From assembly GCA_004335835.1 (NCBI GenBank), contig RWJK01001661.1, positions 62,001-126,000 of the forward strand: a stretch of DNA of 64,000 nucleotides. The letters are read 5' to 3'. Made by a program: the position numbers and the translations under genes. The first letter of the stretch is position 1; each line of letters begins with the position of its first letter. Shown piece after piece: positions 44,101 to 63,300 of the stretch. A model generated the notes under the pieces. That model worked only from the letters and a program-made list of their open reading frames with translations. It made no database searches and had not been told where the DNA came from. The DNA comes from Scenedesmus sp. ARA3. Lineage: Eukaryota; Chlorophyta; Chlorophyceae; Sphaeropleales; Scenedesmaceae.

Positions 44101-44848
44101 TCCAATGTTCTGATGTTGACTTTGGACGCTGCGGCTTGCAGGAGAAGCTGGGCCCGCAGTGCATGCGCTGGCTGGAGGACCAGGTGGCCAGCATCAGGGA
44201 GGCAGCCACCAAGACGCTGCAGAAAATCGCACAGGTACGGCGGCGCAGCAGCTTGCCAGCACAGCAGGGGGCCAGCTTCATCTGGCAGTCGCTGCACAGA
44301 TTCCTCGGCAGCAGAGTATAGCAGGCTCGCCTGGCACCTGTACAACAACAGCCATGATTGCACTGCACAGCATCTGCGCAGAGCTCTTGCTTCTCCTGTA
44401 TAGCGTAAACATTCACATGATCACGCTAACATACCTCCCCATGCTGTGTTGCCTCTGTGCTGCTGCTGCTGGTGTATCGCAGGAGTTTGGCCCCGAGTGG
44501 GCCAAGGAGCACCTGGTGCCGCAGGTGCTGGGCATGATCAAGAACCCGCACTACCTATACCGCATGACGGTGCTGGTCGCCATCAGCAGCCTGGCCAGCT
44601 TTGTCTCTCAGGAGGTCTTCGTGTCCAGCATGCTGCCAGTGCTGGTGTCATGTGCCAAGGACCGCGTGCCGAATGTGAAGTTCAATGTGGCCAAGGTGCT
44701 GGAGCGCGTGGCGCCGCTGGTGGATGCCAGTGTGGTGAGTCAGACAATCAAGCCATGCCTGGCAGAGCTCAGTGAGGATGGAGATGCGGATGTGCAGTTC
44801 TATGCGCGCCAGGCGCTGTACGCGTGCGACAACATCCAGATGCAGTAG
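41120..44848 (+). CDS. PP2A 65-kDa scaffold subunit A
   Basis: This HEAT-repeat scaffold bridges the catalytic and regulatory B subunits of protein phosphatase 2A. Nine exons: 41120-41169, 41321-41669, 42022-42268, 42559-42671, 42862-43065, 43329-43523, 43787-43936, 44142-44234 and 44483-44848; 588 residues, the canonical length. Signature HEAT motifs are intact from end to end: [209 protein letters not shown] and [20 protein letters not shown]. The tiny first exon (50 nt) is assigned from the split Ile codon in ILIDEL. A TGTAA motif, the usual algal poly(A) signal, occurs at 45243. Confidence 0.97.
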
Positions 44849-46506: not shown

Positions 46507-49337
46507 ATGGCGCAGCAGCTGTGGGTCTTGCTGCTTGTGTTTGCGGTTCTCCGGTCCAATGAAGCCGCGGGACTACAACAGTTGTACGACTGCCCGGACT
46601 CAGGAGTGCAAAGCAGCAGCAAGTGCAACCAGACATGCTTCAAGACCCTAGGCAATGCCCTGATAGGCCTCTATGGTGATCTGTCGGGGTCCCCAGAGCC
46701 ACCACCATGGTCCGGGGTGAAGCCTGGCAGCATGTGTCAGACATGCATCAACCACAGCACCAAGTCAGGCGCCCCGGTGAGCATGGTGCAAGGCAGCGTC
46801 AGCACTGCACGCAGTCATTGCTGCTGCAGTTGACACAGCCAAGACCCAACAAATTTGAGCTGGTTCTTGTTCGTTTGTGACCTCAACAGCAGCAGCCGCA
46901 GCAGCAGCAGCAGCGCATCCAACGCTGGCACAGCAAGAGTGTCAGCACACGCATCCAGTTGGTTGCCGACAACAGCTGCTGGTTGCCCGTGTCATACAGC
47001 CCGCGCAGCAGCCGTGGCAATTCTCACAGCAGCAGGAGCAAATGCACTTGAACCATCAGCCATCAATGGTTCGGCACTTGTAGCAGCGTGACTGGCAGTG
47101 CAACACTTGCGTCACCACCTCGCCAACTGTCTGCTGTTGCCCCCTTGTGCCGCCCTGCACAGGTGAGCCTGCCGTCCTACTGCTGCTGGCCAGGCGTGTA
47201 CTGCTGCTCAGAGGACAGTGGCAGCTTCCTGGAACATGACGACCCTTTCGGCTGCTCGGATGGCATGCCAGCAGCAGTGCACCACCTCGCTATGCGAGGC
47301 TGGAACTTGTCTGGCAGCTTGAGCAAGCCAGTAATTGATGCTTGGGAGCAGCTGTCAGACTACGGCCTGCGCTCTATCGACCTGAGCAGCAATGCGATCA
47401 CTGGCAGCATCCCCAGGAGCATTGGGAAGTTGACGCACATGCGCAGCCTGAACTTCAACCTGAACCGTGAGTGCTGCGGGCCGTGTGGTTGCCTTTGCAA
47501 CTGCGGGTGGTGCTGGCCATCGCGTATGATTGACCGACATGTTGCAGAGATCTGCAGCCGCACACGCATATACAATGGAGTCGCAGAACGCAGGAAAACA
47601 AAGCGCATGATGTGCCGTGCCAGTCTTACTGCGGTGTGCATTATGTTACGCCATCGCAGGCTTGACGGGCTCTATCCCAAAGGAGATCTCAGAGCTTGCA
47701 AAATTGGAGCACTTCTATGCCAGCTTCAACAGCCTCTCAAACCCAGCAGGCTCCACACAGCCGCTGGCAGGGCTGTTCTGCATGAAAGAGCCGGAGCGGC
47801 TGTACAGCTTGATCCTGCGGGCCAACAACTTCACAGGCACAGTGAACATGTCGCACTGCGAAGGCCTGGGGCTGCTTGATGTGCAGGTAGGCCTGCTGCT
47901 GTTATTTTTTTGCATGCAGCGCAGTTGTTTTGGCAGCTGTGGTGGCAGGCAAGCGTAGGATTGTGTATGTGTGCAGGTGCGTGTGGTTGTGATGGTAAGT
48001 GTGGTGTGGTGCAGGAATTGGCGTTGATGGCCCTGCTGGCCTTTGCAGGCCCCCGCCGCGGATACTGCATGTTGCGCCTGATAACTGGAGGGCATTCAAC
48101 CATACAGTGTGTGCCTTTGGATCATATTGCCATTCATGACTGCTTGTGTTGGGTTGCCGCGTTCAGCTAAGGTCCTGCTGCTGCAAACTGGGGTCATGCT
48201 TGCAGGACAACCGCTTCTATGGAGCGCTGCCTATTGGCATCACCAACCAGAACCTGATCAGCTTGCGAGCCGCCAACAACATGTTCAACAGCAGCATACC
48301 TGAAGCTCTCTGGAGGCTGCCGCAGCTCGCAACACTAGAGCTGCCCAACAATGAGTGAGTTTGTACTCTTTGCAAGCACGGCAGCAGCTGCAGGTGCTGT
48401 TGCTGCTATAGCTAACGAAATGCAGGTTGTGCTTGCATGTTTGTAGCAGCCGTACAACCGTTTGAAAGCCAGCAGCACTGCAATGCCTGTGGCCTGATCA
48501 CGCCGTGGTTGCGAGTTGAATCACTGCAGTATGAACCTATATTGCTGGTGCGTGGTAGTATCTTCAACCAGGTTATGGTGGTCAACTGTAGTCAACATCA
48601 GTCTGCACTAGCTCTGGCTAAGCAGGCATGCCATGCTTACACATTGCATATCCGCCTGTTGGCTGCTGCTTGCAGCTTGAGTGGCACGCTGTCTCCCTAC
48701 ATGGGCACGGTCAACAACCTGGTCAACATTCGGCTTGGAAATAACAGCCTGCGTGGCACTATACCCGGCAACGTGACAACCAACAGCCAGATGCTGCTTT
48801 TGGAGCTTCAGGATAACCCGCTGCTCTACGGCACGCTACCTGATGTGTCGTGAGTGTGCCGGAAAAAGTCGTGGCTGTGATAACTACATACAGCACCGCA
48901 GTGTGCAGATAACAGCTGCGTAGACGTTGCACAGGTCGCAGTCGCGTTCTACCCACAGCTAGATGCTGATGCAAGGTATACTGTACGGTGTGCACAGCGA
49001 GCAGCACACTGAGGCGAAACAGTGCATGGTGTGCATATTTCCGCCATACTGAAACGGCCGCGCTGCATGCTTGCAGGAGGATGGTGGGCATCAGGACGCT
49101 GGACCTGCACAACACCTCCATCAGCGGTGAGCAGCATGCGAGGACGTGAAGCCCAGCGCCTGTTCATGGCCATCTCTGTGTCGTATAACAGACTTGCATA
49201 TGAGTGTGACCTACAACAGACTTGCATGTGTCTCCTGTACCCGCAAAGCAATGCGGGTCATGCGGCCTTCCCCGTGCCAAGGCATAGCTGCACAGCTTCC
49301 TGACCAAAGCTCTGCTGCTGCCGCAGCTTGTTGTTAG

Positions 49338-49397
<60 letters not shown>

Positions 49398-49447
49398 NNN
49401 NNNNNNNNNNNNNNNNNNNNNNNNNNNNNNNNNNNNNNNNNNNNNNN

Positions 49448-49504
<57 letters not shown>

Positions 49505-49596
49505 TGCAGGCACCATCCCAGAGGCATTCGGGAGCCTGCCCTACCTGGAGCGCGTCGACATCAGCCTCACGCACATGCTGTGCTGATGCTGCTGTC

Positions 49597-49635
<39 letters not shown>

Positions 49636-52600
49636 GCAGGCACCATCCCTGAAGCACTGGGCTCCCTGCCCTACCTGGAGCGAGTCGACATCAGCCTCAC
49701 GCACATGCTGTGCTGCGAGAACCAGTCCCATGCAGACGCGCTGGCTGCGCAGGGCATCGACAAGCTGCTGCCCAGCTTCCTGCGCTTCAACAACCGCATC
49801 GTGCAGTTTGACACCACGCGCAACGTGCCTATGAGTGACCTGGACCCTGACCAGCCCACAGACGTGCTGTGAGTGATGCACTTGTGATGCTGTGTGCCGG
49901 CAAACATGCGAGGTGGCACTGGGCTGGTGTCCTGGCATGCTAGCAACTCAGCAGTGTGGCAGTGGTTTCTGCAGTTGGCGCGCATGTACAGAAGCCAGAT
50001 CCTGGTCCATGGTTTGTGTGCATTGCGGAAGCAGCTGGGCTGACTGTGAGACTCCTTGCGGGGGAGGTAGATGTTGTGGACACAGCTAACTGCAGACAAT
50101 TTCTGTCAGCATTGAGGCCGCCAGCCTTCATGCATACACTTGCCTAGCCCAGCTCACCTGCTGTTACGCGCTGCAACTGCAGGTGTGGATCTGTAGAACG
50201 CCGCAGGCAGCCGTCCTCTGTTTGGAATGTGCTGGATCTGCCGATCACCAACAGCGCAGTCACCAGGCAGAAGTGGAGTATAGGACCGCTGTACTCCTTC
50301 TACAAGAACTGCACCTGCACTCCGGTACGTGGGTGCACTGCCACCTGCCAGCTGCGTCCAAGCACTGTCGTTATACGTGATATTCATTGGTTGATATTCA
50401 CACAGCATGCAACACTTGCAGGACCCTATCACATGCATGCCCACACAGGACAGCTGGGCTGAATTGCATTAGTCATAGAAGCTGCAGAAGCCTCGACATC
50501 AAGGAAAATCATCACTGGCATCTTTGGTTGGTGTCCAAGTCAATGGCTGCTTGTCTGCTGTGCTGCCGCATTCATTCAGCATGGCTCAGCCACCCTCAAA
50601 CTGAGCCGCTGTACACATGCGCTGCTGCATCTGCAGGCGTACGTGCAAGACACGCAGTCCCGCGTGCCAGTCAACATCACACAGGCCTGGTGCGACAACC
50701 CAGCCATCCCAGACAACAGCTGCCCCGAAGCATTCATCTTCCGCTGCTCCCTAAAGCATCCGCCGCAGCTAACCCTAGCGCAGCAAGTCGCGCTGGGTGT
50801 GGCTGGTGCTTTCTGCGTGGTGCTGCTTGCGGTGCTGGCGAATACCTGCATGGCGCATGCCAGCAAGATGCGGCGCTACTACATCCGAGCCAAGACGCGG
50901 CTGCAGGGCACGCCGAAGCACGGCAGAATGAGCTTGGTGGTCACAGATATTGAGGGCTACTCAGGTGGGGTCGGTTGGCTGGTGTCGTGGCTAGCGTAGT
51001 TGCACAGGTTGTGCTGCTTGCGTGAACGAAGACCAGCGCACGCATGGTCAAGCAGTTGGCAGTCACTGGCAGCTATATCTGGCGCAGCAGCACTGACATT
51101 GGGGCCGTGCAGCTTGCGTGGTGTCCTTAGGCGCTGATGTTTCTGGCTACTCTGCTTGTCCTTGCTTGCATACCAAAACAGCGCGCTGTGCGCGGCTGCA
51201 CTCCGGCAGTCGGTCCTTCCTCCACATACCCCACTGCTACTCCACATCCTCATCGTCACCACCCACACAATGTGCTGCCGCCGCTGCTGCTGCTGATGCT
51301 GCACTTCTTCCACACCACAGAGATCTTCAAGCGCGCCCCTGAGGTCATGTTCCGCGCGCTGGTCATGCACAACGGCGCCATCCGCGCCGCCAAGTACGCC
51401 AACTGCGGCTTTGTGCTGGAGCAGGAGGGCGACAGCTTCACGCTGGCCTTCCACAACGCGTTTGACGCGGTGGCCTTCTGCCTGCAGGTGAGGTTTGACC
51501 AGGTTTGACTGGGGTTGACCGGCTTTGACCAGGTGGCAACTTTGGTGTTAGGAGATCGACAGCTTCGCGCTGGCCTTCTACAACGCCGTCGACTGCCGTG
51601 GCCTGCAGGTGAGGTTTGACCAGGTTTGACCGGGGTTGACCGGAATTGACTGGGGTTGACCTCTGCCTGGGTATGGTTGAGGTGGATTCTTGCTGGAGCA
51701 GGAGGGCGACAGCTTCACGCTGGCCTTCTACAACACCTTCGATGCGGTGGCCTTCTGCCTGCAGGTAAGGTTGGACCGGGGTTGACCGGGGCTGACCGGG
51801 GTTGACCGGGGTTGACTGGTTAACCATCTGCCTGAATTGTGTTGAAGGTGGCTTTGTGCTGGAGCAGGAGGGTGGCAGCTTCATGCTGGCCTTCTACAAC
51901 GCGTTTGATGCAGTGGCCTTCTGCCTGCAGGTGAGGTGACCAGGGTTGACCGTGTTTTGTTCTGAATCAAAGGTGGCGGTTTTGTTCGTTGGAGGGCGAC
52001 AGCTTCACACTGGCCTTCTACAATGCATTCGATGCGGTGGCCTTCTGCCTGCAGGTGAGGTTTGGCCAGGTTTGACCGTGGTTGACCTCCTCTCTGAGCA
52101 GTATCGAAGCTGTTGGCGTTCTGCTGATAGGAGGCCACGTGACTATGCTGCTGACTGGCAACTCTACTGCGTGCTTGTTTTTGTGCTGCAGGCTCAGCAG
52201 GCGCTGCTGTCGCTGCAGTGGCCGGAAGGCCTGGGCATGGATGAGTCAGCGCTGCCCTCCGCTGACTCCATCTCGGCACGCAGGCCCAGCAGTGAGTGCG
52301 CAGCGGACTTGCATTATCTTTCAACATTGAAATGTTCTCATGGCGATCTGACTTGTGCCAGTGAAGGAGTGAGCATACTAGCACCAAGCCCTGCAGCATC
52401 AGTAAACCAGGCTGCTGGCCAAATATTGCTGCTATCAGCATGATTACCTCTCTCCCAGTGCAGCAGCCACATTAGCTGTGGAGGGCAGGGGCATGCGGTC
52501 TGAGCTGTGTTGTGCAACGTGTTGCGAACTGTCAGACCAATGCAGTGTTTGTGCAGAGCCGAGGTAGCTTCATGCGGTACGCTGTGCATAGCCGGCTTGC

Positions 52601-53563
52601 ATTGCATGCAGCGACACATGTAAGTATCCCTGGACACTGCTGCAGAGGTTGCTGCAGCTGCTGCTGTTCTGCATGCTGAGCAAGTGGCGTACTGCATGCG
52701 GTGTCGTGATCGCAGGGTTGCAGCAGCGGCTGTCGCAGCTGCTCACATCAGGCACGCGCCGCAGGGCGCAGCAGCTCAACAAGTCAGCGGGTGAGCCGAG
52801 AAGTTGCAGCCACTGTCAGCCCAACCTGATATTGGCGCAGCTGCAAGCGTTGCTGACAAATACTACGTTGTGGCACATACGCCTGCTGTCTGTGTCCCAC
52901 ACTGCGGTGTTGCAGCAAAACAGAGGGGATGCTTCTCCAATGTGCGGCCTGTGTCAAGCCAGCACTGCTCAGCAGCCACATGTAGGCAGCAAAAAATTTA
53001 AGTGCGGCATGCACTGCCTGTGCTCCTTGCCAAGATTTTGATGCATGTCATGCTGACAACTTTCTGGTGTGTATCCTCTGCGCTGCAGCCGGCAACACGG
53101 TGTCTGAGGGCGAGAGCATCAGCCTGCACGTCAGCCCCAGCAGGCAGCTCAGCCAGGTGGGTCATTTTTGCAGTGCATTTTGCATTGCATTTTGCATTTT
53201 GCATTGCATTGCATTGCATTGCGTCTTGCTTTTGCGCGCATGGGCTTTAGGAACCACCGATTGCATTGCATTTTGCATTTTGCATTTTGCATTTTGCATT
53301 TTGCATTTTGCATTGCATTGAAATGCATTGCATATGAGGCACATGGCGTACGCTGTCCACGCCTCATTACTGTTTCCACAGATGCATTTGCACTTCATGC
53401 ATCATGCCAGCTGCTGCTGTTCAGCCGGCGTTTGACACACAGACGCCTTCAAGACACGTGGGGGGATGGCGTGACGCACATTGCGGCTGCCATTCTTTGA
53501 ATACGCCGCATGCATGACGGAGCACAGCATCTGCACACTCGGACCCGCACGCTTGACACCCGC

Positions 53564-53609
<46 letters not shown>

Positions 53610-53774
53610 AGTCTCTGGCGGCGCGCCTGGCGGGCCTGAAGACCCCTCCAACCGACCCTGCACTGTTTGCTGGGCTGCGTGTGCGCATGGGCATCTGCAC
53701 TGGCGACGTGCCCAGCGGCACTCCAATCAAGAGCAGCGCGCTGTTTCAGCTGGCCAAGGGTGAGACGTGGTTGC

Positions 53775-53819
<45 letters not shown>

Positions 53820-56800
53820 GCTGTGTTTTGTATGCGGGCCGGGGATGAGATGCCAGCATGGTGCTGTACACTGAGCAGCAATCAGTCAGGATTGCCTTGG
53901 CTGTTGCAAGGCAGGTGCCGTGCCGGATATATCGCCCAGACTCCTTACAGTGCACAGCTATTCACTCTTGACCTCCAGCCTGCTGCATTGTTATGACATT
54001 GTTACATTGTTACATTGCCCTGCAGTGGTGTCTGATTTTGGCAACGGCGGCCAGGTTGTGATGGACCATGTTACATTTGCGGCAGTGAAAGAGAGCCTCA
54101 CAGTGCTGGGTGCTGTGGAGGCAGGCGGCATCAACTACACACGCCTGGCAACACACAGGTCGCTGTGGACAAGCCTCAAGGTGGCGCTGGGCTGCACTAG
54201 GTGAGGTTATTAACATTGACAACAACGTTAGTAACAGATGAGCTGCTGCGGCGGCGGCAGCAGCAGCGGCTGTTTGTGCAGGGGTTGCTTCAACTGCCAG
54301 CTCTACAGTTGGTCAACAGGTAGAGCGTGGCAGATGCTACAGGGTAGCTCACGGCCTGCTGAAGTAATGCCATGGATGTGTGACAAATCCCCCTGCTCCT
54401 CCTGCTGTTACTGCTGCTGCTGCTCTGCTGCTGCTGCTGTTTTCCTGCAGCCCGCTCGATCCTGCAGAGGAGGCTGTCGTGCTGGACATGGGTGCATACT
54501 ACCAGCCTATTCAGGGCGCCAACAGCAGCGCAGATCGGCCAGATACCTTGGACCTAGCTGGCTACCCAGCGCCGGGCAACATGCAAGACGCCGATGATGG
54601 CGAGCAGCAGCAGCAGCAGCAATCTGGCGGCTGTTGCAGAGGCTGGATCGGCTGTCTGCAGCAGCTGCGCAGCAACTCGAGTGCGGCAAGTGCCCTGACA
54701 TCAGCCAGCAGCAGCAGGCGAGGCTTCAGCGCATCACCGAGCCTTGCAGGAACAGCTTCAGGGGCTTCTAGTAGGCAGCCATGGGGCAGCCGCATTTCGC
54801 AGCTCTCTGCATTGTTCAGGCGGCAAGCGAGCAGCGCTGGCGGCAGCGGCGCGCAGCCACCACAACCTGTAAGCCAACAGCAGCAGCAGCGGCACGGCAG
54901 GATGAGTCACACCACCGCAAGCAGCACCAGCAGCGCCGTCCCTGCTGCAGCAGCAGCATCAGCAGCAGGAGGCGGAGAGGCATCAAGTCCTCACTCGGTG
55001 TTTGAGCGCGTGCGCAGCTTCAGGCGCATGCTGTCCAACACGTATGGTGCAGAAGGTAATGCGGCCGGCAGCAGCAGCGGCAGGCGGCAGCGCGACTGGA
55101 GCAGTTTGCGGCTGTTTCAGGTGCTGCCGGCGGCGCTGACTGGGCGCGCACATGTTTGGCACAACCAGCTCAACTTGAAGGATGGCTGGAGGCCGTATGA
55201 CATGCCATACTTTGACGCGGTAAGTGCTTGAGCACTTGGTTCATGTTTGTTTGTTCAGTCCTGGCAGTGCATCATCTCGCATAGATATGCATTTGTGTCA
55301 AAGCTTCTGCTGTTGGAAATTCCCGTAAAAAAGCAGGTTTGATTCAATGTATCGCCCACTGGCTGAGCGCCACTTGCAGGAAACTTCCCTGAGTGTCCTG
55401 TCGGACACTCTGCCCTTACCTTGTGCGCGCATCTGCCCCTTTTCCGCCTGTTGCTGCAGCCCGGAAGTACAGTCGTGCCGCTGTCAGGTGGAGGCGTCAG
55501 CTTCCAGCATCATCAAGCCAGCAACCACACCGGCTGCTGTAACTGGAGTACTGCACCTTCATCACGCACCGCATCTGGCTCTGTCCATGTCAACAACAGC
55601 AGCGCTGTTGTCAACAGCGCAAGCGTGAAGGCAGGCAGCATAGGAAGCAACGGGTCTGGGGCTGTGCAGGGCCTCAGCAACAGTAGCATGGCGCTGCAGC
55701 AGCTGCCGGCTGTCACGATGGTCTTCATGTCGGCAGAGAACCCGGAGCAGTTGGTGCGGCGCAGGTGAGGTTTGCAGCGCTGCCCGAGGCTGGAAACAGA
55801 GGATGCATGCTGCTGCTGCTGCTGCTGCTGCGTCACACAGGCTGCCTCCGCTCTCTGCTTGCTGCACCCTGCTGTTGCGCCTGCTCCTGTGCGCCCACTC
55901 TCACCTCACTCGTCATTCTTCCTGCTGCTTCTCACTGTTGTGCTTGACTGTTGCTGCCTTCTTCTTCGTTAGCATCACATCGTGCTGTATACATGCTGCA
56001 GCCTGCCCTGCTCTTCCTCCTGTATCTCTGCTCTCAACTCAAACCCCTTCTCACTGCTCCTTTGCACTGCTGCACCTGACTGCTGCTGCCATCTTCCTCG
56101 TTATCATCACAACAGGCGGAGCTTCACACCAAAGGTTCAAGCGCTGCTGCACCAGGCAGTGCGCGACGGCCTGCGCCGCTGCGGCGGCTACCTCTGCAGG
56201 GTTCAAGAAGGCGACCTGCGCTTTATGGTGGCCTTTGCAAGCCCTGTGGCAGCACTGGAGTGGTGCCTGGTGGTGCAGGAGGCAGCAATGTATTTGCCCT
56301 GGCCCACAGAGCCGGTGCTGCTGTATGAGGGGTGCACTGTGGAGCGGGATGCGCAGGGGCACATTGTGTTCCGGGGGCCGCGCATTAAGATGGGTGTCTG
56401 TGAGTATCTTCAGGCCAGCAGCCAGTAGTTGTGTGTTGCAGTGTATGACTCGTTTATGCGTTGCATTAAATGCAGTTCATGGATGCTGCGCACTGTGCAC
56501 CTATGGCGGTACAAGCTGTGCGGCTGTTGCTTGCTCCTGCTGCATCTTGCGCTCACAACCGACGCTGTTGCTGATGCTGTTGCTGCTGCTACTGCAGGCG
56601 AGGGCGTGCCCTCCTCCATCTTCCCGGACCATGAGGGCCGCGCCGACTACCACGGCCCAGCAGTCAACATGGCGGCCCGCTACGCTGACAAAGGCGCCAA
56701 AGGCGGCCAGATCGCTTGCTCGTTGGAGCTGGCTCAAAAGGTGCTGGCGGCCTGGGGCAGCAGCAGCAGCAGCGGCGGCGGCTGCGGCAGCAGGGATCAA

Positions 56801-58723
56801 GAGGGCAGCACACACAATGGCGGCTGGCAGGCTGCTGCAGCAGCAGCAGCAGCAGCAGCTGGTGGCGGCAGCATGGGGTGTTGCTCGCCTGGCAGTGCAG
56901 CTGGCAGGAGGAGCAGCGGGGGTGGGAGTGGCAGCGGGCCAGCAGCTGGGGAGGGGCTGCAGCAGCTGCAGCTGGAGCTCCAAAGCATGTCAGCAGTGCA
57001 TCAGCCGAGTGCTGCTGCTGCTGCTGGGTTCAGCAGCCAATCAGGTTCCTTTGACAGCAGCAGCTGCAGGGCTCCTGCTGCTGATGCTGATGCGGCTGGT
57101 AGCAGCCAGCAGCTGCTGCGGCTAGGTACGCCATTGCACAGCATCAGCAGCGGCATTGAGATGAGCGATGTGCAGCTGGCGCAGCTTGAGCTGCAACAGG
57201 AGGCACTGCAAACTCAGCTGCAGCAGCAGCAGCAGCAGCAGCAGCTGGGGTCTTCCTGGCCTGGCTCGCCTCTCTCTGGCAGGCTTAGTAATGCAGCAGC
57301 AGCAGCAGCAGCACCACCAGCCTCACATGCTGCCAGCTTCAAAGGCAACCCTTCTGGCTCAGGGGGACACCTAATATGGCCTCAGCAGCAGCAGCAGCAG
57401 CAGTTGGTTAGGCTGCCGCCGCTGCGCACTGGCCTACATGCCTCTTCAGCGTCTGGCGCTGCAGCAGCAGCAGCAGCAGCTGGCGAGGCAGGCGTACAGC
57501 ATCAAGCTACCTTTGTAGTGCCGAATGCACCACGCAGTGCGGTGGCAGTTGAGGTGCACCGGCTGGGCCTGTTTGCTTTCAAGGGCGGACCCCCGCAGCA
57601 GGAGATGGTGCAGATCCTGGCCAGCCATCTTGTAGGCAGGCTGGACGTCACTAGCCGCGCTGCTGTGGTGCCGTCGCGCAAAGGGCAGCTGCTGCAGCAG
57701 CAGCAGGGCAGCATTGGCGAGGCAGTGACAGTGCAGCTACCGAGCCTTGCGGCTGAGTATAGGGACAAGCTTCCTGAGAGGCTGCTAGCAAGCCCAACTC
57801 GCTTCCCAACGAGCCGAGGGCGTGCGTGTGTTGTGAAGGATAGGTATGGTGCTGGAGGTGTCCTGCAGTCAAGTGATGAAGGCTTCACTCTGCCGACAAC
57901 AAACAGCGCTCCTGTAGATGGCGCAGAGCAGCAGAAGCAGCAGCAGCACCATGTGAGGTGGGATACCAGCCTTGGTGGTGCGCCAGGAGCTGATGGGAGC
58001 GATGCGTCAGCAGCTGCTGGCCGCCGCAGCAGTAGCGGCACCAGCGCTGCTGATAGCCGGGTGTCGCATCACCTGACAAAGCTGCGGGTAATGAGTGATA
58101 TCACCTCCAGAGCTAGCACTGCTGCAGTAGATGACAGCAGCAGCGACGCTGCTTGCAGGACCGGCAGCAGCAACGACGTCGGTGTGGCAGCGGCAGTGAG
58201 TGCACCCCTGCCAAATGCCACAGAACCCTGGGCGGTCAACTGCAACAGGAGCGGCCGCAACAGCAGCAGTGGTGGCGCAGCAGGAGTGGAAGCAGCCAGG
58301 CAGCTCACCAAGAGCAGCAGCAGCAAAGCCAGCAGCAACAGTGGTGGTCACCTAGCCCTCACAGTGAACAACAGCAGCAGCGATGCTGCTGCTGTCAGCG
58401 ATGCCAGCCTGTGTGGCATCACCCAGCAGGAGGACTCCGGCCTGGCGCAGCCGCCAGCAGCAGCAGCAGCAGCAGTGAGCAGCGGTGCGGGCGGCGCACA
58501 CAGCAGCAGCATATTGTCCAGGCATGATAGCTTTGGGTCGGTTGCGTCTGCCGATGCGGCTACAGATGAAGCAGCGGGTGGTGCATCTGATGCTGCTGCC
58601 TGCCGCAGCAGCAAGTCTGGATCCAGTGGGGTGGCTTCCCCTGGCAGGCTGAGTGAGGCTCAGCAGCTGGTGGCAGCGGGGTGTGGTGCAGCGCTGCAGC
58701 AGGACCAGCAGCAGCAGCAGTGA
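46507..58723 (+). CDS. LRR receptor-type adenylate/guanylate cyclase with tandem C1-C2 domains
   Basis: Nineteen exons total 6,090 coding nt (2,029 residues): 46507-46776, 47163-47466, 47660-47886, 48206-48354, 48676-48849, 49077-49126, 49640-49868, 50183-50324, 50637-50964, 51321-51487, 52192-52291, 52716-52790, 53089-53156, 53612-53759, 54026-54200, 54451-55219, 55460-55764, 56116-56399 and 56598-58723. A signal peptide (QQLWVLLLVFAVLRSNEAAG) is followed by Cys-rich and leucine-rich repeats (LRSIDLSSNAITGSIPRSIG, LTGSIPKEI, LVNIRLGNNSLRGTIPG) to about residue 420. One membrane helix is near 566-588 (VALGVAGAFCVVLLAVLANT). Domain C1 has VVTDIEGYS (~617) and EQEGDSFTLAF (~660). A long Gln/Ser linker (811-1125) precedes C2 (~1209-1360), which has VQEGDLRFMVAF and DYHGPAVNMAARYADKGAKG. 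The tail is low complexity, interrupted by HRLGLFAFKGG. It should make cyclic nucleotide in the cytosol in response to an external ligand; ATP is favoured by the Asp of DYHG. Confidence 0.85.
49338..49500 (+). repeat. CTG microsatellite with 50-N assembly gap
   Basis: A CTG run of about 20 units precedes, and another of about 17 units follows, a block of N at 49398-49447. The repeat lies in the cyclase gene's intron 6. True length is unknown, and the N count is probably a placeholder. Confidence 0.98.
49509..49586 (+). repeat. Copy of receptor-cyclase exon 7 start
   Basis: After CTCCTGCAG it codes TIPEAFGSLPYLERVDISLT, matching the real exon at 49640 (TIPEALGSLPYLERVDISLT), and then meets an in-frame TGA right after HMLC. 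The two copies are separated by a second CTG run (49597-49633). Confidence 0.85.
51405..52054 (+). repeat. Five copies of the cyclase C1 exon 10 end
   Basis: The exon 10 3' end (51405-51487, GFVLEQEGDSFTLAF to FDAVAFCLQ) recurs at 51552-51608, 51690-51764, 51849-51930 and 51975-52054. Each ends CTGCAG followed by GTGAGG or GTAAGG and GTTTGACC-type intron sequence. Copy 4 changes GDSF to GGSF. The unit is about 90-170 bp. Confidence 0.9.
53163..53330 (+). repeat. GCATT/GCATTTT satellite in cyclase intron 13
   Basis: Two blocks of GCATTTT and GCATT units (about 53163-53222 and 53261-53330) flank a unique segment of about 38 bp, starting a few bases after the donor at 53157. Confidence 0.95.
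53567..53610 (+). repeat. CTG run forming the exon 14 acceptor tract
   Basis: About 14 CTG units end in CTGCAG, which is the 3' splice site of exon 14 (53612). The CTG run stands in place of an ordinary pyrimidine tract. Confidence 0.9.
53778..53818 (+). repeat. CAG microsatellite in cyclase intron 14
   Basis: About 13 CAG units begin 18 nt after the donor of exon 14 (53759/53760). Confidence 0.95.
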
Positions 58724-60395
58724 GGGTGCAAGGCAGGGCTCCTGCCTACTGTGCACTGACAGGTGTTGCTGCTGCTCCTGCAGCTGGTTGCAGCCATGCG
58801 TCTCAGGTTTACAAAGTGTTGATGCGGCTGCAGCAGCAGCAGTGTCCCGGCAATCCTTGGTGCATGGCTCTGCTGCTGCCTTTGGAAGGGATGTATCCTG
58901 GAAGGAGGCCTATAGGTGGACTGTTTTGGCATAACTGAACTTGCTTGGTTGTTTGGCGCTTGCTTACTGTGAATGGCAGGTAGCCATGCGCCTAAGCACT
59001 GTCTGGGATTACAATTCATGGTCTGTGGGCATGAGTGGCTGTGCTTGTGCATCCTGCTGTGGTGCACCACATGGCGTGCAGAACGTATCGGCTTATGTGC
59101 TGTGGCCTTTAAGCTGGCATGCTTTTTTTCAGATTGATGCAGCCCTCAACAGCTGCATCTGATACATTACAGTGTCCTGTTTGCGGTGGGATCTGCAAGA
59201 GTATGGAACCATCAGGTCGCAGCTGTCACAGCAGCACTGCACAATCAAGCCTTTCTTCGAAATAGCAGCTGATCAGTGCCCCATGCTCTGAAGCAGCATA
59301 GTACAGGCTGCCCTCTTCAGCTGTGCAGGTTGTGTTTTATCCTGTGGGTATGAAGTGCATCGAAAGGTGCAAGGGCGGCATGCGGCGGCAAGCTAGGCAT
59401 GCGTCATTTGATATTCATGTATATGCATGCAGTGCTGCATGCTGTCCCTAGGTTGTGACATAATATACCACAACTGATGGCAGCAAGTACTCCAATGTTA
59501 TCTTTTTACACGCCGCATGCTCTGTACGCGTATGCATGGTGTGTGACTCTTGATCCATGTGGTCTGTGATGCACGGGAGTGTGCACAAACTTGTACAGCA
59601 TTTGGCTGATGTTTTGTTTGGCTGATGTTGTGTTTTGTTTGTGCCTCCTAGTAGGATGTGCTGCTGGTCATGTGTGTTGGACATTTGTGATGCTTTTTCA
59701 CACGTTTCCTCTTACATTGTGCGTGCATTGCTGGCAAGCTAGTGCCGTGCCAATTACTAACAGTGTTACCGCTCATTCGTGTAAGCGCTGCAGCATATTG
59801 CACGTTGCAAGCACACTCAGCCGATGCAGCAATGACAGCTGGTACCATCTGAGGTTCAAGCAGACATGGTGGACCGGGGGGCCCTTCTGGCAATGTGGGT
59901 ACGCATTACGTTGCATTGTGCTTGTAGTGTGCGACTCTTTACAAAGCTGGCCTGATGGCATGGTGTTGCACAGGTGCTTGTGGACATGTTACCTACCGCC
60001 AGTCCCACTGTCGATGCCCTGCATCTAACAGTGTTTTACACACTTTTGCAGTCAAAGTTCTAATGTAGAGGGCTGCCGTCGCCCGCAGTGGAAGAAGACC
60101 AATGGCTGTGCAGGCTGCCCGCAGCGGCGTCAACAGGATCCGGCAGGGCTAAGCCCTACTACCCCTGACTTTCAAAGGTTGCGCCGGAGGAGCGCCAAAG
60201 CATAGATGGTATATTATAGCCAGCACATACCCAGCTCATCTTCTATCTATGAATCGCTTACCTCCCCGCTCACAGTTGGCACCCGTACGACCCGTTGCCG
60301 GGATGTTGTTTTGTCTCGCACATCCTATCCGCGCCCAATTCTCTGTCTGAGTATCTTGTTCTCGCAAACAGCCCGGCTTTGGCTCATTCTTCACC
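58724..60395. other. Intergenic, receptor cyclase to ketoacyl-CoA synthase
   Basis: About 1.67 kb between two plus-strand genes. A T/G-rich stretch with repeated TTTGGCTGATGTT lies at 59600-59640. A TATA-like TATATTATAG lies at about 60209, some 185 bp before the next ATG. No gene or RNA was recognised. Confidence 0.4.
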
Positions 60396-63300
60396 ATGGC
60401 GAACATTGGCGGGATGCAGATTGATTGGCCGGAGCCGGTGTGGTGTTATGCTGCTGCTCTGCTGGCAGCATGCCTGCTCGCAGTTTACTGCTGGGCGAAG
60501 GCAAAGCCAACAGTGTATGTTGTGGACTTCTCCGTGTTCGACCCTCCAGTCAGGTGAGTGCTGCTCTGCTGTGGTGCACTGGGTGAGCCTGGATGGTGTG
60601 TCAGGGTGCGGCAAATCTGACTCTCCGGGGGCATGTCATGCCTCACTTACAGCAGTATGCTTGCACCAGCCAAGTCAGCACGTGCATGGCAGCTGAGATT
60701 CACTCAGTCTCCTGAGCAACGGTCGCTGTGCACACTGTGCTGTTTGTGACAAACAGCGGACAGCCAGGGAAAGCAGAGCTTTGGTCGCTGCCACCATAAT
60801 GCTTGCAGTTCACAAGTTGCACTAAGGTGTGATGCATTGTCTGCTGCTGCCTTGCTCCGCAGCTGGAAGTTCCCCAAGGCCATGATCCGCAAGGTGGCAG
60901 AGGCCAACAACAGCAACCCCCACGCTGAGCGCCACGTGGCCCCAGAGCACATCGACTTCATGTGCAGGCTGGCTGAGAGGTGAGCACACAGTTTGAATAC
61001 TTGTAGGATTTGCAAACTGCCTTTTCAAAGCACAAATCAGAACAATGCTCACTCAGATGTCTAGATGCAGCTCAGCTCCCCTTGAGGGTTACAGCTGTGC
61101 GTGACAGCAGCTGTGGAAAGGCTGGCCCTAATCTGGCATGTAGCAGCTGAGCGGACAGCTCCGAGCTGCCGCCAGCCGGCTGTTGTGGGCTTGCAAGTCA
61201 GCCCGGTAGATGCAGCGGCAGCGCATCAGCTGCTCGCTCACTCAGCAATCCAGCCAGCGCTTTGCCGCACTCGCTCAACAAGCCAGCTGTGGCTTTTGTC
61301 GCACAGAAACGAGGTGCCACACATTGTGGTTTGCGCGTGTGCGTGGCCTGATGACTGGCTTTCATCATCTTTACTGAACAATGCCGCCAGTGTCAGCAGC
61401 GTGGCTTCACTGCTCCTGTTCCTGATCATGTGTGTTGTGCCCTGCAGGACTGGCCTGGGTGATGAGACGCCGGTGCTGCCAGAAACACACCTGGGAGACA
61501 TCACCATGGCAGGTGTGAATGTGCATGGAATCCATCATGGTTGTGGCAGCATATGACAGCTGCATTACCGCAGCGCTGCATGTGTCATCCTAGGCAATGC
61601 AGCTGCTGCTGCAGCAGCAGGCTGCCCAGAATGACACATGCAGCGCTGTGGCAATGCAGCTGCAGCTGCAGCAGCAGGCAGCCTGCTCCGAGCCAGTGCA
61701 CTGCATCAACTGAAAGTGGCTCACATGGACTGCGTCGTAAGGTGCAGATCTAGGCAGTTGCTGTGCGCTGATTATGCATGCAAGGCAGCAGGTGCTGCGG
61801 GGTCCACCATGTTTAGTGTCAGCACTTACATGTGTTCTAGGCCTGCAGTCACTACTACAGTACATGCCACCTTGCAGTGACAGACTTTGAGCTGCAGCGA
61901 CAGCCTGCCACCAGCAGGCACGTCTTGAGTGCCGCTCAGCAACACTCCTTGTCGTATTTGGTGTTCTTTGCTGGTCCGCAGGCACAGCCCTAGCACGATC
62001 AGAGTTCTCCCGAACCTGCATCACCACAGCAGAGGCGCTCTTCAACAAGACAGGTGCGAGCCCAGCAGCCTGCAAACAACTTCTTTAGTAGGCGAATGTT
62101 TTTGTTGTACGCTCGCTGGTGTTACCACACAAAGCACTGAACTCCGATTGGTGCCACATTGTGCACATATGACAAAACGGTTCATTCCTGGCAAAGCCGC
62201 TAACCGTTACGAGACAACCTGCCTCACTCTTTTGCTGGTTGTGCAGGCATCAGGCCGCAGGAGGTCAACTTTGTCATCACCAACTGCAGCCTGTTCAACC
62301 CAGTGCCCAGCCTCAGCGCAGCAGTGATCAACCACTTCAAAATGGGCCACCGCACGCGAGGCTTTGCCCTGGTGAGATCGCTGCACAGCGCTGTAGAGTG
62401 CTGCTTTGGCGGCCTGGCAGGTGCAGGAGTGCGCTAGGCATGCCAGGCCTGCCGTTGTGAAGAGAACAGCCCACTGCTAGGCTTATGTTTCAATGACAGC
62501 ATCGCTCGCAGCTGCTTGCTCCTCAAGACACGGGCGCAGCCACCGAGCAGGACACCAGCTGTGGCCAGCCAGCAATCAAACCGTTGCGTGCTTGGCCGCA
62601 GACGACACACGTCCTCGCTTATGCTGTATGCAAATGCCAACCCCTTGCACACTTCATTTTCACCTGTGTTGTGTGAGCAGGGAGGCATGGGCTGCTCAGC
62701 TGGTGTGATTGCGCTGGGCCTTGCTCAAGACCTGCTGCAGGCCCACCCAGGGTCCCTGGCTCTGGTCATCAGCCACGAAAACATCTGCAACGCCACATAC
62801 ACAGGTGAGGGGATTGACGTTGGTTGTGGTATTACGCGGTGCAGTGTGATTCAAGTGTAACTGCCGTAGCTGCACTGCTCACCCCGGCTCGCTGGCTCTG
62901 GTCATCAGCCACGAAAACATCTGCAACACCACGTACACAGGTGAGGCGGCTGACCTTGAGCTGCCTGCAGCAACATGTGACAAAACGAAGCTTGTTGCAG
63001 GCTGCTGACAGTTTCCACCTGTGTAGCAGCTGCTCTACCCGTCAACTTTTGTACAATACTCCCAATAGCCGGGTGACGTGCTGGCCGCAACACTACATGG
63101 TGCGGTTGCACATCATGACAACTTCTCCTGAGCTCCCGTGGCTGCACTGCTATCACGCTCTGGGCGCACAGGAGTCCTTTTGCTCCTGCTGATGTGACGG
63201 CTGGCCAAAACTGCATGACGCCTGTGCTTGCCTCTTGCTGCTGTGCAGGCTGTGACCCCAGCATGCTCATCTCCAACGTGCTCTTCAGGTGGGCCCCGGA

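Follow-up and report, generated by a model that had tools for sequence, protein, structure and literature searches.

In animal transmembrane adenylyl cyclases (tmACs) the purine base is bound by a Lys-Asp pair, as is the rule for adenylyl cyclases. The trypanosomatid GRESAG 4 cyclases carry an ectodomain that differs from leucine-rich repeats (LRRs), and fungal Cyr1 is intracellular. To our knowledge, the cyclic-nucleotide receptors of green algae are little known. According to the class III scheme outlined in PMC2576301, one monomer gives the two metal-binding Asp residues, while the other gives the ribose Asn and the transition-state Arg. Here we analyse a gene on the plus strand of a 64,000-nucleotide stretch of the Scenedesmus sp. 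ARA3 genome (the window; C1265:62001-126000 in a genome of 87.3 Mb and 1567 contigs). The gene is predicted to encode an LRR receptor that carries two cyclase domains, C1 and C2.

The gene quite probably encodes a receptor nucleotide cyclase that crosses the membrane once and belongs to a core-chlorophyte family with the order LRR, transmembrane helix (TM), C1 and C2, in which both domains together would form one composite active site. As members of this family do, the window protein has the LRR, one helix and the split residues. The residues in question are located as follows, with counts referring to the readable positions among the 57 close homologues described below.

50946..50948, plus strand: first metal Asp of C1, D619, in VVTDIEG (Asp in 50 of 52)
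51431..51433, plus strand: second metal Asp of C1, D662, in EQEGDSF (Asp in 51 of 52)
53747..54027, plus strand: degenerate NxxxR position of C1, Q807-V811 (QLAKV), interrupted by the intron that separates exons 14 and 15
55730..55732, plus strand: lost first metal Asp of C2, S1216 in MVFMSAEN (Asp in 0 of 54)
56198..56200, plus strand: Arg1255 of C2, standing where the purine-binding Lys would be (Arg in 49 of 55)
56645..56680, plus strand: Asp1338, Asn1345 and Arg1349 of C2 in ADYHGPAVNMAAR (Asp in 49 of 53, Asn in 50 of 53, Arg in 52 of 53)

Read from the sequence, the two metal Asp, the Asn and the Arg of a class III site are complete only across both domains together. The original prediction had stated that C1 keeps both metal Asp residues and has neither Asn nor Arg at QLAKV, and that C2 has its first Asp replaced and retains Asp, Asn and Arg; both statements hold, and all motifs quoted for them lie on one spliceable gene model of 19 exons with open phases. 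The second metal Asp is still present in C2 of the window protein (D1260) and is drifting, with Asp in 27 of 54 relatives. The register of the degenerate C1 loop, with Q807 in the Asn column and V811 in the Arg column, was taken from a MAFFT alignment, and the Myrmecia C1 domains that contain the whole loop (VEYSGVVMDLAKA; VEYDGPVVTLLHA in P0059) give the same register. An alternative register, with FQLAK as NxxxR, was rejected, as the family has no Asn there either (F, M, L and others instead). In Myrmecia P0079 the full-length C1 loop reads VDYSGPVMDLAKA; this loop and that of P0059 may show steps of the residue loss.

Two protein searches yielded 71 proteins, 57 of which were kept as the close family after 14 fungal, bacterial or distant ones (P0038-P0041, P0062-P0071) had been dropped before counting; about 8000 candidates were scored in each of the three protein searches of this study. 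Members of the close family come, among other sources, from Tetradesmus, Scenedesmus, Monoraphidium, Raphidocelis, Chlamydomonas eustigma, Chlamydomonas sp. UWO 241, Volvox, Gonium, an entry coded Chrzof1 and also the trebouxiophyte Myrmecia bisecta. As the prediction implied, no close homologue that could be read has an intact NxxxR motif in C1: Asn is found in 0 of 52 and Arg in 0 of 53 readable positions. When alignment columns are ranked by conservation (close family without the near-copy P0001), the kept C1 residues stand at ranks 17 (first Asp) and 12 (second Asp) of 146 and the kept C2 residues at 23 (Asp), 19 (Asn) and 9 (Arg) of 161, with the lost positions at 115 and 125 of 146 in C1 and 156 of 161 in C2. 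Sorted conservation of this kind is expected of a single composite site but not of general decay; with kept residues near the top and lost ones near the bottom, the ranking is our strongest evidence that one composite site would work, and the one-site mechanism proposed earlier is well supported by sequence. Chance motif matches were considered as well and rejected on the column conservation in the close family.

The pattern extends to a wider family, collected in the third search with Myrmecia P0059 as query (best 120 of 553 matches). The matches listed come, among other sources, from Trebouxia, Symbiochloris, Apatococcus, Pedinophyceae, oomycetes, fungi and entries coded Astpho2 and Mesvir1, which we take to be Asterochloris and Mesostigma, and they include P0142 of Effrenium voratum, a dinoflagellate according to its looked-up lineage. 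Exactly two domains were found in 127 proteins, with the window protein included and the near-copy P0001 excluded. A complementary split in the same sense is present in 101 of them, the reversed split in 0 of the 127 and a complete site within one domain likewise in 0 of the 127. An alignment-free check for N...R ahead of the GG turn found this motif in domain 1 of 0/127 and in domain 2 of 100/127. At least three cyclase domains occur in P0092, P0093 and P0111, with all residues intact in domains 2 and 3 of the first two and in domains 1 and 3 of P0111. Three cyclase-like domains are also seen in the LRR proteins P0139, P0143 (Micractinium tetrahymenae), P0149 and P0151. Among oomycete two-domain proteins, P0165-P0170, P0174 and P0176 score without the C1 metal Asp residues and keep Asp, Asn and Arg in C2; voltage-sensor cyclases have been described in an oomycete, as outlined in PMC12223298.

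Several observations, taken up in this and later paragraphs with the alternatives they bear on, weigh against a working receptor cyclase of this design. In the close family, P0042 has lost both C1 metals and P0025 and P0056 the C2 Asn, and P0050 is also among the exceptions to the residue pattern. In the two-domain set, the second domain scores without Asn or Arg in 14 of the 127 (with P0047, at least, an alignment slip, its motif being intact in the close-family alignment), and 12 of the 127 score without a metal Asp in domain 1, eight of these being oomycete and P0035 and P0087 scoring so through gaps. Since some relatives have lost working-side residues, not every family member need be active. 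The Lys of the purine-binding Lys-Asp pair is replaced in the window protein by Arg1255, with Asp1338 present; in the two-domain set the same column holds Gln in 73 proteins, Arg in 41 and Lys in 1. Losses of this kind, the replaced purine Lys and the fact that each single domain lacks part of the site would suit a pseudocyclase receptor, in which both domains are dead and have a scaffold or dimerisation role. We consider this rather unlikely, as the composite-site residues are among the most conserved columns while the other site drifts freely, and decay would not sort the residues so. The base-selecting Asp that had been claimed for C2 is indeed found as D1338 and is kept in 109 of the 127 proteins; because of it, ATP appears the likelier substrate of the composite C1-C2 site. 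As a separate observation, the trebouxiophyte proteins P0061, P0079, P0083 and P0084 (Myrmecia, Trebouxia) keep the C1 metals, but their C2 no longer has Asn, Arg or either of them, and these may be pseudocyclase receptors.

In the mechanism we propose for the composite site, a plant-type LRR solenoid on the outside would bind a ligand, and C1 and C2 would pair head to tail, either in one chain or between two chains of a receptor dimer. C1 would supply both metal Asp residues and C2 the Asp that contacts the base, the Asn for the ribose and the Arg for the transition state, so that each C1/C2 pair would have one working and one dead site; ligand binding would shift the membrane helix and thereby switch the working site, with cAMP or, less likely, cGMP as product. 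Pairing, catalysis, substrate and ligand gating are the parts of this scheme that we infer. By sequence, C1 and C2 of the window protein match GRESAG 4.3. The Pfam family Guanylate_cyc matches neither C1 nor C2 above cut-off, and nowhere on the window's contig, which we ascribe to a model that is too narrow rather than to an absent domain because many relatives do carry a Guanylate_cyc match. AlphaFold monomer models were obtained for the full-length relatives P0013 (928 residues, no LRR) and P0001, and Foldseek matches both domains of the P0013 model to class III cyclases by fold. The P0013 model (predicted template-modelling score, pTM, 0.70) has well-defined domains, with C1 and C2 placed unlike those of animal cyclases: compared with both domains of AC9 or AC5, the root-mean-square deviation is 15.1-15.9 Å over 302-320 residues, and against soluble adenylyl cyclase (sAC) the template-modelling score is 0.21-0.26 of the target. 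The P0001 model (pTM 0.54) is uninformative on pairing because LRR chains filled its structure-match list. Single-pass receptors commonly signal as dimers, and this, like the lack of animal-type docking in the P0013 monomer, would fit a trans arrangement as a sub-case of the composite-site reading, in which the C1 of each receptor would form a site with the C2 of the other, giving the dimer two sites and making dimerisation the switch. We regard this sub-case as possible but doubtful; the linker seems long enough for pairing in cis or in trans and does not discriminate between them.

The architecture, which is evident from the predicted protein, comprises the following features.

46507..58723, plus strand: whole gene model, 19 exons, 2029 residues; likely signal peptide, LRR, TM, C1, C2 and low-complexity tail
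46507..46776, plus strand: exon 1 of the gene model, likely signal peptide (hydrophobic start judged by eye) and Cys-rich N-cap
47163..49868, plus strand: plant-type LRR ectodomain, exons 2-7, residues about 91-467
50769..50843, plus strand: single transmembrane helix, residues about 560-584, Kyte-Doolittle peak 2.43 at residues 565-583
50925..54200, plus strand: C1 cyclase core, exons 9-15, residue 612 on, with an insert of ~80 residues included
54476..55129, plus strand: closing strands of C1, LDMGAYY ... LRLFQVLP, with a low-complexity insert between them (P0001 model strands 803-811 and 888-895; family consensus)
55703..56758, plus strand: C2 cyclase core, exons 17-19, residues 1207-1375
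57542..57700, plus strand: FKG segment (K1650), beyond a long low-complexity stretch (FxFKG in the consensus, 47 aligned proteins)

All 18 introns of the model are GT-AG, the phases are continuous over the 19 exons and a single stop ends at 58723. The LRR ectodomain and one membrane helix predicted before the two cyclase domains were recovered in the gene model, in a domain search that identified LRRs, and in the hydropathy peak. The helix continues towards C1, and the P0001 model shows a single helix at 488-530. The hydrophobic start of the protein scores under the 1.6 cut of the hydropathy scan, and its only other hydrophobic peak (1.65 at residues 1263-1281) lies within the C2 fold. Among 27 proteins picked by hand, the 110 residues preceding C1 hold one hydrophobic peak in 26 of the 26 scored; as a further point against the single-pass design, seven of the 26 have a weaker peak (1.61-1.85) between C1 start and C2 end, the instance in the window gene being the one inside the C2 fold. 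The earlier limits drew both C1 and C2 too short: the last C1 strands lie at residues 878 (LDMG) and 1088 (LRLFQVLP), separated by the low-complexity insert, and the FKG segment probably forms the last C2 strands, a fold assignment by which C2 would be closed far downstream. This segment has no Pfam match and is not present in P0001; it matches five other places in its own genome (two on C56 and one each on C1435, C3 and C903).

Also to be counted against the proposed protein, the window gene is known here from genomic DNA alone. Together with the long low-complexity exons between C1 and C2, this leaves room for the idea that prediction fused two adjacent cyclase genes. The closest named protein, P0001 (OEZ85_010869, Tetradesmus obliquus, 1192 residues, encoded on a 7.6-Mb contig, 97% identical in the best local alignment), departs from the window model in the linker and the tail. 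Its first residue corresponds to Met76 of that model, it skips part of the C1-C2 linker and it has a different end after C2. P0001 thus lacks the likely signal peptide, since the first 75 residues are absent, and lends no support to the long tail. It was, however, predicted from a different assembly of Tetradesmus obliquus and still has LRR, TM, C1 and C2 joined in a single protein. P0005, presumably an RNA-derived entry given the MMETSP form of its name, likewise has LRR, C1 and C2 in one polypeptide. With the same order and joining predicted in many genera and phases open through all 19 exons, we give the fusion artefact next to no credence and retain the single two-domain receptor. Within its own genome the C1 and C2 queries each match 19 contigs, 18 of them common to both, which is an estimate of paralogue number rather than a gene count because the two queries cross-match.

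The original prediction also had the pair evolve on a receptor scaffold, and this part is not supported. Split domains occur in algal proteins without LRR as well and in a group with the dinoflagellate protein P0142 (the dinoflagellate-type group: P0132, P0134, P0135 and P0144, labelled by 40-55% identity to P0142), and C1 and C2 group separately across these. Trees were built from 126, 124 and 68 rows, picked from 248 after clustering at 75% identity, over about 150 columns and with sAC not among the rows; two oomycete rows, one of them long-branched, were excluded from the 124-row and 68-row analyses. The 126-row tree sets 51 first-domain rows apart from 51 second-domain rows with Shimodaira-Hasegawa-like approximate likelihood ratio (SH-aLRT) values of 94 and 99 (one oomycete row in each), and the 124-row tree gives the C1 and C2 groupings at 96 and 96. 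The C2 group stays when 7 catalytic columns (98) or 37 columns around the motifs (99) are removed; in both cases the C1 group takes two changes instead of one. Forcing chlorophycean C1 and C2 into one clade costs 45.6 log units (approximately unbiased test, p-AU 0.025), and forcing the dinoflagellate-type domains, with three of the four proteins in the test, costs 40.9 (p-AU 0.036), the clades having been named after a first tree was viewed.

An independent division inside chlorophycean LRR receptors would draw on chlorophycean C1 and C2 each being a tight, long-branched group and on the additional change in C1 without the catalytic columns. We hold it to be very unlikely, since C1 groups with C1 and C2 with C2 across algae and the dinoflagellate-type group, the C2 grouping survives column removal and both p-AU values, with the stated reserve on how the groups were named, speak against it. 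The grouping across lineages points to one old duplication and split rather than an origin in LRR receptors. The C1/C2 split thus looks old and not born on an LRR scaffold, being found with LRR, Apple-type (PF14295 in P0009 and P0025) or other partners; this tree evidence is moderate because the trees are quick, cover about 150 columns and use groups named after a first look. Gene transfer between lineages may form part of the distribution. We see an even chance that there is a second pseudo-heterodimeric C1/C2 cyclase lineage, evolved separately from the tmACs, shared by green algae and dinoflagellates and with a non-canonical Arg/Gln-Asp base pocket, to which green algae attached plant-type LRR ectodomains, giving a large receptor family that would be the cyclic-nucleotide counterpart of land-plant receptor kinases.

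The gene and its surroundings also contain repeats. Intron 10 contains, at 51550-52087, four incomplete tandem copies of its own junction with exon 10 (97-109 bp, 83-91% identity). They comprise the last ~65-80 bp of exon 10, the exon that encodes the second metal Asp, together with ~20-40 bp from the start of the intron. One of them has EGGSF where exon 10 has EGDSF. In a paralogue on C56, a different unit of 251 bp that includes the same exon part is repeated 3.5 times. We take the intron 10 copies for debris of tandem duplication rather than alternative exons. A 130-bp direct repeat in 2.0 copies (49451-49715) duplicates the start of LRR exon 7 and lies next to CTG runs and to a gap of 50 N (49398-49447). 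Upstream, within 44120-44848 on the plus strand, lies the end of a gene for the PP2A 65-kDa scaffold subunit A, with an E value of 4.7e-61 for the best PDB match. Downstream, 60351-60557 on the plus strand is a possible start of another gene; 53 residues of it have no Pfam match and by eye presumably resemble a ketoacyl-CoA synthase.

In the open-licence PubMed Central literature, no description of an algal LRR receptor bearing two cyclase domains was found by title or abstract start among the matches listed. The family, whose catalytic residues are predicted and whose exterior resembles that of plant receptors, is testable and would add another natural case in which a symmetric two-site enzyme became an asymmetric one-site enzyme. 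Possible intermediates are Myrmecia C1 domains with an Asp/Glu loop and the multi-domain proteins P0092 and P0111, in each of which two domains are intact.

Among known systems, the animal twelve-helix adenylyl cyclases, to which the window protein had been likened, are an apt analogy: they too have two class III domains per chain in the same order, with the metal Asp residues in C1 and Asp, Asn and Arg in C2. They differ in having twelve membrane helices and no LRR, whereas the window protein has one helix and an LRR ectodomain, lacks the two six-helix membrane blocks and has Arg-Asp in place of the Lys-Asp base pair. Six tmAC rows, which are without the first strand, fall outside the algal C1 and C2 domains and are set off from them by a long branch (SH-aLRT 99). 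The trypanosomatid GRESAG 4 receptor adenylate cyclases share the receptor type and give the best sequence match of both domains and the best fold match of C1, but have one cyclase domain with Asn and Arg intact instead of two split ones. Fungal Cyr1 also combines an LRR with a class III domain within the same protein (P0038, P0039), but its cyclase domain is single and intact and is accompanied by PP2C (PF00481); that fungal relatives have one intact domain, as had been stated, was seen in P0171, P0173, P0175, P0180 and P0181. sAC resembles the window protein in its C1-C2 pair in one chain, with Foldseek alignments over both domains, but is soluble and has no receptor part. In contrast to the plant LRR receptor-like kinases RGFR1, HAESA and ERL, finally, the cytoplasmic output of the window protein is a cyclase pair and not a kinase.

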